A DNA stretch of 64,000 nt from Candidatus Pandoraea novymonadis (GTDB lineage Bacteria > Pseudomonadota > Gammaproteobacteria > Burkholderiales > Burkholderiaceae). The notes beneath the pieces are model-generated. The model worked only from the letters and a program-made list of their open reading frames with translations, searched no databases and was not told the DNA's origin. The translations under genes were made by a program, and so were the position numbers. Where the stretch lies: positions 310,001 to 374,000 of the forward strand of contig NZ_MUHY01000001.1 in NCBI RefSeq assembly GCF_003004665.1, written 5' to 3'. Of this stretch, positions 7,331 to 11,293 are shown one piece after another (position 1 is the first letter of the stretch; the number at the start of each line of letters is the position of its first letter).

Positions 7331-8665
7331 TTATAGACCTGTATGATTTACAATATACGTTTTGACACGTTCTACACCGGCTGCGACTATGTGAAAACGT
7401 TGAGGTAGAGTTTCTATCTCCTCAAAACCTATTGGAAACGAGGGCTCATGTCCCAACGCTTCACGAAGGGTTGCTGAAAATTTGATCGGCTGCGCCGTTT
7501 CCAACACTACCATCGGAACACCCTTCTCACTCAACGGCTTCACGAGCCACTTTCACACCATCTGCTGCCTGTGTGTCGATCAAAATTTCTAACGTTCAGC
7601 AATATCATGAATCGTAGCTATACGATCACGTGAGTGCTGCGTCCCGATACGAGGCTAAACTCGGCTCTACCCGTGAAAAATCGTCCGTTCGTGACAGATC
7701 AATCTCTCCTTGCGTTTCTATCGCGTAGAACAGTGCCGAAGTACGTTTTGCATCGCGCCCTAGAAAATCAAATAAAAACCTCTCAAAGTTTGATGCTTTA
7801 GAAATATCCATGCTCCGGCTTCTGGTGTGATACGTCTTGTTATGCTTGCGCACTCGGTAGCGACCTATTCGGAAAAATTCATCGAGAACATCGTTCTCAT
7901 TTGTTGCCACGACTAGCTTACCTATAGGTAAGCTAGTCGTACGTGCAATATGACATGCACAAACATTACCGAAATTTCCGGAAGGGATTGTAAAAAAATT
8001 TCACTGTCAACCCCCATATCTCCGCCAGTAGCGAAAAAATACCCCTTAAAATAATAAACAACTTGTGCGGCAATACGTGCCCAATTAATCGAATTGACAG
8101 TTCTAATTTTATGTTTTGCTTTATAAGCATGAAAATTCGAATACCTGATTTTCCTCGCATTGCCTATTCAGCAGCACTTCCAGTTTCTCCGGAGGTCGCA
8201 CAAAGAATGTTTAGTAACTCGTTATAACGAGTCAACGTATATTCAAATAATTGCCTAACAATTGCATGGCGATATCTTTAAATGCAAGAGTCGGACTATT
8301 AGACAATGCTAGCAATGATATTGGGACACCATTCTCCTCTCCAAGGGGAACAAGTGACGTAATGTCCTCATCTTTCTCATATGGCCTAACATTCTTATAT
8401 ACTTCAGCAGTATATGTAAGGCGCGTCAAATAAAGTAGAAGATCGATAGGTAAATCATCAATGATTTACCTATTACTTCGTCTGCTAAATCAGTATATGA
8501 AAGCGTACGCCATCTCTCTAGCTCAGTTTTCGTTACTTGAGTGAGAGGGTACACTGTCAGGAGATAAAGTCCACCATATGGCGCTAGGCCACTCAACAAA
8601 ACGCTTAAAAATAATTTTGGCGCGCCTGTGAATGAACCCATGCCACGGGTAGATATATATTCCAT
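7331..8665 (-). pseudogene. thrC: threonine synthase pseudogene
   Basis: ThrC converts O-phosphohomoserine to threonine. Collinear ThrC fragments occur in different frames. MEYISTRGMG starts the first at 8665; next is TYTAEVYKNVRP...SPTLAFKDIAMQLLGN. Then comes TSGETGSAAE followed by an in-frame TAG (8164-8166) where the family has Tyr, and MRGKSGIRIFML. After a deletion of roughly 55 codons (junction about 8101-8125) come TVNSINWARIAAQVVYYFKG, a frame change at a 7-base A/T tract (7992-7998), PSGNFGNVCACHIAR, VATNENDVLDEFF, and finally EKGVPMVVLETAQPIKF. Stops near 7600 break the C-terminal third again. Several independent lesions rule out a single sequencing error. It lies 4 bases after hom. 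Confidence 0.95.
7909..7940. repeat. 32-bp perfect palindrome inside the thrC remnant
   Basis: Arms of 16 bases, ACGACTAGCTTACCTA and its exact complement, meet without spacer. One arm encodes the conserved GKLVV of threonine synthase, the other the preceding RTTSLPI, where relatives have residues like RMMGLPI. The sequence therefore lies in what was coding DNA. Confidence 0.93.
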
Positions 8666-8669
8666 GGCT

Positions 8670-9980
8670 TTAACTGAGTGTTTCCATTCGGATACGAGTT
8701 ACTTGAGAGAATACCGTATCTAGAGCCTCAATGCACGAAATTGCTGAGTTGATAAATTTTTCCTGTGTTTCATGCGTCAAAATAATAATGTCAGTCTGTG
8801 GTTCTCCTTCGCGTGATTCTTTTTGTAATAAGGCATCAATGGAGATGTTTTGATTAGCCAAAATTCGTGTGATTTCAGCTAGAACTCCTGTTTGATCAGC
8901 TACTCGTAATCGCAGATAGTAGCTAGTTCTGATTTGCTCAATTGGCAAAACCGGCATGCTCGACAATGCGTCATGTTGGAATGCTAGATAAGGTACTCGA
9001 TTTTCTTGGTCAGCGGTATGCAAACGAGTTATATCGACAATATCAGCAATCACGGCTGAAGCCGTCGGTTCAGCACCTGCCCCTTTACCGTAATACATTG
9101 TGGCACCCACAGCATCACCATGTACTAAAACCGCATTCATTACACCTTCTACGTTTGCAATTAGCCGTTTTGCGAGAATCAAGGTTGGGTGCACACGTAG
9201 CTCAATACCTATATCCGTACGGCGTGTGATACCAAGAAGCTTGATCCTATAACCAAGCTCTTCCGCATATTTAATATCGATGGAGGAGAGTTTGGAAATT
9301 CCTTCAACATAAGCTTTATTGAACTGCACTGGCACACCAAATGCAATTGCGCTCATAATAGTAGCTTTATGCGCTGCATCGACTCCTTCAATGTCAAAAG
9401 TAGGGTCGGCTTCAGCATAACCAAGACGTTGCGCATCTTGCAATGCAACGTCAAAATCAAGACCCTTTTCACGCATTTCTGACAGAATGAAATTAGTGGT
9501 ACCATTAATGATACCAGCGATCCATTGGATTCTATTAGCAGTGAGTCCCTCACGCAGAGCTTTAATTATGGGAATACCGCCAGCTACTGCAGCCTCAAAT
9601 GCTACCATGACGTTGGCTTTTCTGGCGGCTGTGAAAATTTCGTTACCGTGAACAGCTAACAGAGCTTTATTCGCTGTCACGACATGTTTACCATTATCAA
9701 TTGCTTTTAACACTAGCTCCAGAGTTGGGTCATCACCACCAATAGTCTCCACTACTATATCGATCTCCGGATCCATCACTACGTTTAACGGATTATCTGT
9801 TACCTCGCAAACGCCATCCACAAGTTTACCTGCTCGTTCAACATTGCGAACAGCCACCTTCGTCACATCAATGCAACGACCTGCACGGCGCTGGATTTCT
9901 TCTTGATTACGAGCCAATACTCGAAAGGCACCGTAACCTACGGTGCCGAGGCCAAGCAAGCCAACTTTAATCGGTTTCAT
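8670..9980 (-). CDS. hom: homoserine dehydrogenase
   Basis: NAD(P)-dependent reduction of aspartate semialdehyde to homoserine, the branch point to threonine and methionine. The 436 residues show the Rossmann loop GLLGLGTVGYG near the start, the catalytic-domain segment AGIINGTTNFIL, and a C-terminal ACT domain (YYLRLRVADQTGVLAEITRI) typical of allosteric regulation. Start chosen at ATG 9980 (MKPIKVGLLG), which matches the family; the frame continues 30 codons upstream without support. The next gene, thrC, is dead, so homoserine may now feed only other uses such as methionine synthesis or exchange with a partner. The gene itself looks intact. Confidence 0.96.
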   Translation of the reverse strand: MKPIKVGLLGLGTVGYGAFRVLARNQEEIQRRAGRCIDVTKVAVRNVERAGKLVDGVCEVTDNPLNVVMDPEIDIVVETIGGDDPTLELVLKAIDNGKHVVTANKALLAVHGNEIFTAARKANVMVAFEAAVAGGIPIIKALREGLTANRIQWIAGIINGTTNFILSEMREKGLDFDVALQDAQRLGYAEADPTFDIEGVDAAHKATIMSAIAFGVPVQFNKAYVEGISKLSSIDIKYAEELGYRIKLLGITRRTDIGIELRVHPTLILAKRLIANVEGVMNAVLVHGDAVGATMYYGKGAGAEPTASAVIADIVDITRLHTADQENRVPYLAFQHDALSSMPVLPIEQIRTSYYLRLRVADQTGVLAEITRILANQNISIDALLQKESREGEPQTDIIILTHETQEKFINSAISCIEALDTVFSQVTRIRMETLS

Positions 9981-10906
9981 GCGTTTTCTACTCAAAAAAT
10001 TATTAATTTTTGAAGGTTTGTCATAATAGACTGATCCTTCGCTTATTTTACCAACAGCCATAGCCTCCAATTAAACAGATAATGCAGATGAAGTCAGCTT
10101 ATAAAGCTATTTTATAGTGTTAAAAATAAAAATATAGAAATGATTAAAATCTAGAAAATTTAAATAATTTTCGTGGACCAGAAAAAATTTATTCCATTTT
10201 CTCATCGAAAAAAGTGGATAGACAAATTGAGGCCTTGATTATTATTACTGGTTTTAGCGTTCTTAAAACACGTCTAAATGGAAATTTAGACTAATGTGAA
10301 TATTAATCACATCAGGCTTATGAGCTCCTCTAAACAGAGGTATTCGTGAATAGATTTTAAGTAAAAACGCACCGAGATAAAGATCTTCATCTTTACGATG
10401 GATAATCTGTTAACAGATTATGAGAATTTTTCAAACATGAAAATATCCGCAAACACCTCTATCATGAACGAACATAACCATAAACGAGCAACCATATCAT
10501 AGAGGATCTTATCCTATATTTCATTCGTATAGACTTTGTAAATTTTTTTTACAAACAAAATGGACAATATTCTTGACAAGTATGTTCACAATATAAAGCT
10601 ACAATTTTTGTAGGTTTCGGATCACATATAAAAAACGAATGTCATAACTTCTTCTGTGATTTGGGATACCGTCATGCGCGGAGAGAGCAAAGACCATGTC
10701 CATTCATGAAAATCTCAATTCATAAGGATGTATCGTGCTCATTTTTGATATATATAAATGAATTGGAAAAGATATAATTTAAACATTGTTGATAGACTTC
10801 AGCAATGACAATGCCTCATTAGCGATTTCTTGGTGCAATACTAATCAATTAGCCATATTCTTTCGAGAATCATTCTATTCGATTGGACAGTGGAAGATCC
10901 AAAAAA
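9981..10906. other. 0.9-kb gene-free region between hom and the Mth938-like gene
   Basis: No coding sequence I can support on either strand. Related free-living genomes often carry an alaT aminotransferase gene here (from memory), but I could not recognise any piece of it. The region should hold promoters for hom and the downstream + strand operon, and it contains the run of hairpins listed at 10273-10555. Confidence 0.5.
10273..10555. repeat. cluster of seven short inverted repeats
   Basis: Inverted repeats in order: TCTAAAT/ATTTAGA (10273-10290, 7 bp), ATGTGA/TCACAT (10294-10312), CCTCT/AGAGG (10327-10340), TAAAGAT/ATCTTTA (10378-10395), the 20-bp perfect palindrome ATAATCTG-TTAA-CAGATTAT (10402-10421), AGGAT/ATCCT (10503-10515), and TTTGTAAA/TTTACAAA around five T's (10535-10555). 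Arms are perfect. Function unknown. Confidence 0.8.
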
Positions 10907-11293
10907 GTGAAATTTTATCAAGATCCTTTACAGACATTGAATACTATTACCGGTTACGGCGATAATCATGTTGAAATCAATAAAGTCTGCTATATGCATA
11001 GCGTTATTGTTTTTCCTGATGGTGATGTTCGGAATTGGTCTGTGAGCCATTTTGACGCACTGTTGCCAGAACATTTTGAATCGCTCATTTCGCTATCACC
11101 TGAGGTTGTTATTTTCGGCAGCGGTAAGCGCTTACGTTTGCAGAATCCACGTCTTACCGCATCTTTAGCTGAGTTACAGATCGGTGTCGAAGCTATGAAT
11201 TTTCAAGCGGCATGTCGGACCTACAATATTTTGATGGCTGAAGGCCGTAAGGTCGTATTGGCCTTACTGATTGAAAGTGAGACTACCACGTGA
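10907..11293 (+). CDS. Mth938-like domain protein (DUF498 family)
   Basis: Small protein of the Mth938/COG3737 fold; biochemical role unknown, although relatives occur near respiratory-complex assembly genes. The 128 residues contain ITGYGDNHVEINK, LSPEVVIFGSGKRLR and the signature ACRTYNILMAEGRKVVLALLIE, close to the family consensus. I chose GTG 10907 (MKFYQDPLQTLN) with a GGAAG upstream; a TTG at 10883 is possible. The stop overlaps the arnT start (GTGA), so the two are translationally coupled. The same pair heads the Ara4N cluster in Burkholderia as I recall it. Confidence 0.85.
   Translation: MKFYQDPLQTLNTITGYGDNHVEINKVCYMHSVIVFPDGDVRNWSVSHFDALLPEHFESLISLSPEVVIFGSGKRLRLQNPRLTASLAELQIGVEAMNFQAACRTYNILMAEGRKVVLALLIESETTT

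Follow-up and report, generated by a model that had tools for sequence, protein, structure and literature searches.

A dense cluster of short perfect inverted repeats in the genome of Candidatus Pandoraea novymonadis is probably unconstrained DNA left after the loss of an alanine-aminotransferase-like gene, with its stems made by template switching (quasipalindrome correction). The bacterium is an endosymbiont of the trypanosomatid Novymonas esmeraldas. Its genome totals 1,157,259 bases across six contigs, the largest of 844,906 bases, compared with 3.6–6.5 Mb for the 31 other Pandoraea genomes searched. The window, the whole stretch of DNA analysed, comprises 64,000 nucleotides of this genome, and its best named match is Pandoraea terrae. 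In the proposed mechanism, the nascent strand would fold back or switch strand at an imperfect inverted repeat, and one arm would be copied from the other to leave a perfect repeat. Unconstrained DNA would accumulate such events, and the 902-base spacer that contains the cluster would represent the stem-rich extreme of a distribution that spans the genome.

The original prediction placed seven perfect inverted repeats at 10273–10555, and all seven are present at these positions:

10272–10291, perfect inverted repeat with an 8-bp stem and a loop of 4, the inner 7 bp of which correspond to 10273–10290
10294–10312, perfect inverted repeat with a 6-bp stem and a loop of 7, containing TGTGA-N7-TCACA
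10327–10340, perfect inverted repeat with a 5-bp stem and a loop of 4
10378–10395, perfect inverted repeat with a 7-bp stem and a loop of 4
10402–10421, perfect 20-base palindrome with a 10-bp stem
10503–10515, perfect inverted repeat with a 5-bp stem and a loop of 3, within an aminotransferase relic
10535–10555, perfect inverted repeat with an 8-bp stem and a loop of 5

Five additional stems of at least 5 bp lie between these seven, two of them overlapping at 10426–10444. An excess over shuffled sequence had been set beforehand as a test and was borne out with dinucleotide shuffles. The 283 bases of the cluster contain 12 stems of at least 5 bp, compared with 5.0 (sd 2.2) expected from 1000 shuffles, and 4 stems of at least 7 bp, compared with 0.42. 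The left part of the spacer (9981–10272) has a milder excess (15 vs 7.9). A chance grouping of stems, noticed in an AT-rich stretch, would be in keeping with a stretch chosen by eye and with the right part of the same spacer (10556–10882), where the excess is absent (7 vs 6.2). This account is nevertheless very unlikely, as the count of 12 was attained by a single one of the 1000 shuffles and, with the best 283-base stretch freely chosen in the spacer, the observed value was attained by 1 of 500 shuffled spacers. None of 248 other spacer windows in the genome exceeds the cluster in stem-sum z, and seven equal or surpass it in stem count. This top rank may reflect the random tail in a long-dead gene, or it may be a sign of function.

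The spacer and its surroundings are arranged as follows:

8670–9980, minus strand, hom, homoserine dehydrogenase (Pfam), the left neighbour
9981–10882, gene-free spacer of 902 bases and 31% GC, the slot of the lost alanine-aminotransferase-like gene
10448–10543, minus strand, faint aminotransferase relic covering approximately residues 201–232 of 408 (6.1 bits, a score reached by none of 300 shuffles)
10767–10829, plus strand, conserved DNA just 5' of the DUF498 gene, holding TATAAT (nhmmer match; 80% identical to P. terrae over 41 bases, E 4e-6)
10883–11293, plus strand, DUF498 gene (Pfam), the right neighbour, followed by arnT

Judged by synteny, a gene has been lost between hom and DUF498. 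An aminotransferase gene fills this slot in 109 of 109 related loci (80 of 80 named and 29 of 29 further Pandoraea), a count that includes some incomplete pieces, does not cover hom in the 29, and contains two entries (L003 and L084) that are apparently one record. In relatives, the slot gene adjoins DUF498, is transcribed leftwards like hom, and encodes 408 residues in P. terrae. Its best NCBIfam match, an alanine aminotransferase model, falls below the curated cut-off, which makes "alanine-aminotransferase-like" the prudent label. The interval between hom and DUF498 measures 1483–1615 bases at 60–63% GC in 21 Pandoraea intervals, compared with 902 bases at 31% GC in the symbiont. A search for an intact aminotransferase elsewhere in the symbiont genome returned only remote homologues, with 23% and 29% identity. 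The list of amino acids that the symbiont cannot make, as given in the genome paper, includes alanine (PMC5632650).

A weak similarity to the lost gene appears to persist in the spacer. The relic has the order and strand expected for the lost gene and falls inside the stem cluster, and tblastn within the spacer places an aminotransferase match at 10439–10534 (E 0.004). At the DNA level, with the conserved ends removed, three of four relatives support the relic (their scores were equalled by 1, 1, and 0 of 150 dinucleotide shuffles), and the fourth does not (16 of 150). End-to-end alignment of the spacer to the P. terrae interval scores 213, a value to which the conserved ends contribute, with mononucleotide shuffles at 113 (sd 13); the reverse complement scores 165 in the same alignment, above the top of 200 shuffles (147), so this alignment is weaker evidence than it appears.

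The cluster had been described as lying upstream of the Ara4N operon. It does lie upstream of DUF498-arnT, but 327 bases intervene and the slot is that of an oppositely transcribed lost gene. The conserved DNA at 10767–10829 probably represents what is left of the region upstream of DUF498-arnT, with a putative promoter role. It lies elsewhere than the dyads, which bears on the suggestion that the cluster comprises multiple operators through which a dimeric regulator such as CRP or FNR acts on DUF498-arnT. The CRP/FNR-type dyad is TGTGA-N6-TCACA. The cluster's TGTGA-N7-TCACA, together with several dyads within one stretch, is what recommends an operator region, but the spacing is 7 rather than 6 and the dyads have no common sequence. 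Furthermore, no protein with a cNMP-binding domain (cNMP_binding, PF00027) was found in the symbiont genome by a search that was positive in 10 of 14 control genomes. Regulation by such a protein at this site is extremely improbable, and this part of the original prediction is not upheld.

The proposal of a structured leader or small RNA fares better on folding energy than on homology. The cluster folds more strongly than shuffled sequence on both the plus (z −2.64) and minus (z −5.45) strands, as the original prediction had suggested checking, and none of 200 shuffles is as low as the minus strand. By folding z the cluster ranks third of 153 spacer windows, with only 2 of the 152 others relatively better. 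These values would suit a structured minus-strand RNA, either a small RNA or a long hom leader using the promoter of the lost gene, in which the short hairpins would sit within an outer helix of approximately 14 pairs. Strong folding is, however, expected anyway from accumulated perfect stems. The stretch is gene-free, with no tRNA and no Rfam family at the gathering score (three sub-threshold matches only). Promoter-like sites in the spacer number 3, compared with 5.0 expected, and terminator-like sites are absent. A homologue of the cluster DNA was found in 0 of 40 relatives searched, in which the slot holds a gene. A minus-strand structured RNA is accordingly an unlikely explanation of the cluster. 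The lowest folding z values, −8.0 and −6.2, belong to two other 283-base windows called gene-free by script (L138:15313 and L136:14155); they are stronger than that of the cluster, and these windows may be RNA genes.

Template switching in unconstrained DNA, by comparison, addresses a stem excess that extends well beyond the cluster. The symbiont sample consisted of the window and 20 further stretches, 464 kb in all, with genes called by a simple codon-usage script that missed some short genes; spacers were defined by removing stretches under any ORF of at least 100 residues and dropping leftover pieces of fewer than 60 bases. The resulting spacers contain 161 stems of at least 7 bp, compared with 66.8 expected, and 31 of at least 10 bp, compared with 1.5. 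The excess grows with stem length, from 1.70x at 6 bp or longer to 2.41x at 7, 4.21x at 8, and 20x at 10. Away from gene ends, 100 stems of at least 7 bp remain (40.0 expected). Intrinsic terminators were considered as a cause and set aside, with none in the 902-base spacer and a genome-wide excess that persists without gene ends. The spacers of a free-living Pandoraea have a similar excess ratio (3.64x at 7 bp or longer, from only 51 segments totalling 14.7 kb, vs 231 segments and 73.8 kb in the symbiont), and the spacer excess is therefore not peculiar to the symbiont.

Coding DNA is also enriched. An initial comparison used 60 predicted genes per genome and dinucleotide shuffles; an improved version took every predicted gene of at least 750 bases (227 from the symbiont and 197 from the free-living genome G012) and applied synonymous shuffles. 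By the latter, the symbiont has 20 coding stems of at least 10 bp, compared with 2.9 expected, and G012 has 12, compared with 8.2. The corresponding excesses at 7, 9, and 10 bp or longer are 1.50x, 3.8x, and 7.0x in the symbiont and 1.12x, 1.33x, and 1.46x in G012. Comparisons with three further genomes (G025, G032, and G027) involve small samples: G027 coding genes show a mild excess (3 vs 1.0 at 10 bp or longer), and 23 kb of coding sequence from G032, a member of another family, contain no stems of at least 9 bp (0.6 expected).

At several of these sites, comparison with relatives finds perfect stems in the symbiont where the relatives have imperfect ones. Stems in metG, a DesA-type desaturase gene, and ligA are perfect in the symbiont (12, 15, and 12 bp), and all 30 sequences from relatives, ten for each site, have imperfect ones, with 6–9 of 12, 8–13 of 15, and 5–9 of 12 matching positions, respectively. 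These are long coding hairpins, located at L146:4945–4970 (metG), L136:9534–9564 (desaturase), and L142:2863–2894 (ligA). A further perfect hairpin with a 13-bp stem lies inside a coding gene at L148:16048–16075, which we take to be valine--tRNA-ligase-like. In LigA, relatives read ESEPAA(A/V)APLPLAG and the symbiont reads ESSLMATVSLPLAG; the second arm retains its residues and the first has been turned into its complement. Two 9-bp stems in hom and arnT likewise show poorer pairing in the relatives compared (3–6 of 9).

Further stems of this type occur in a dead gene beside hom:

7331–8665, minus strand, thrC pseudogene (threonine synthase) with frame changes and internal stops
7909–7940, perfect 32-base palindrome in the thrC pseudogene, with a 16-bp stem and no loop
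8446–8473, 13-bp stem in the thrC pseudogene

In P. terrae, 7 of 16 positions of the palindrome and 4 of 13 of the other stem match, and the pseudogene as a whole contains 4 stems of at least 7 bp, compared with 0.84 expected. Selection for an RNA structure is difficult to envisage so far inside a gene that, like this thrC, no longer functions. No second thrC copy was found in the symbiont genome; threonine is not among the amino acids that the genome paper lists as ones the symbiont cannot make (PMC5632650).

Base-composition drift alters every site relative to the relatives, and single sites are therefore only suggestive; the weight of the template-switch case lies in the stem excess together with the one-arm changes. 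At the cluster itself, the ancestral sequence is too diverged for reliable alignment with relatives, and we infer both a template-switch origin for its stems and a lack of function for the stretch from the wider pattern. Of the three readings offered in the original prediction, a palindrome-forming mutation process has the strongest support, with an excess across the sampled genome that includes coding and dead genes, and with sequence changes, at the coding sites and in thrC, of the type made by template switching.

Repair gene content offers one lead on why such events might be frequent. The exonuclease RecJ (TIGR00644) was not found in the symbiont genome, and a search of 12 other Pandoraea found it in every one; XseA is kept. 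RecJ was also not found in G032, the genome whose coding sample lacks the longer stems, and the association between RecJ and palindromes amounts to one genome and one correlation. SbcD was rejected as a distinguishing defect, because none of 21 genomes, among them those of free-living congeners, has it over the cut-off, and so it separates nothing. Template switching in E. coli is held in check by exonucleases: RecBCD has been proposed to do so in the relevant passage of PMC6357072, and the title of a reference cited there assigns a like role to ExoI. It is conceivable, if rather doubtful, that loss of RecJ during the transition to endosymbiosis removed a check on template switching, such that perfect palindromes still accumulate genome-wide, the cluster is the densest patch, and the proteins of essential genes such as ligA and metG have been changed.

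Gene loss followed by template switching accounts for the hairpins with no need to postulate a new RNA. It also cautions that, in reduced genomes, mutation can be the source of perfect hairpins and of strong folding z-scores. Should the enrichment of coding DNA prove robust, the symbiont and its many free-living congeners would provide a natural system in which to measure template-switch mutation and to ask which repair losses raise it. Among the papers listed by literature searches, judged by title and abstract, none addresses template switching in combination with endosymbionts, RecJ, or pseudogenes.

The symbiont nonetheless resembles several known systems. As summarized in PMC4060949, short perfect inverted repeats occur beyond chance, most strongly between genes, and are attributed to template switching at imperfect palindromes. 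The symbiont also has short perfect inverted repeats beyond chance, but its coding excess is larger than that of a free-living congener and one spacer is unusually dense. Template-switch mutations that both create hairpins and make them perfect are reported by Monttinen and Loytynoja (2022, PMC8794818), and quasipalindrome mutation in E. coli is described in PMC6357072. As in those accounts, imperfect repeats have been perfected, and one arm has become the complement of the other in the symbiont ligA gene and thrC pseudogene; the symbiont changes differ in being known from diverged relatives rather than as observed mutation events. Finally, the oversized AT-rich spacer, its faint relic, and the presence of the gene in all relatives compared recall the eroded remnants of reduced symbiont genomes, from which this spacer is set apart by its unusual density of perfect short hairpins.
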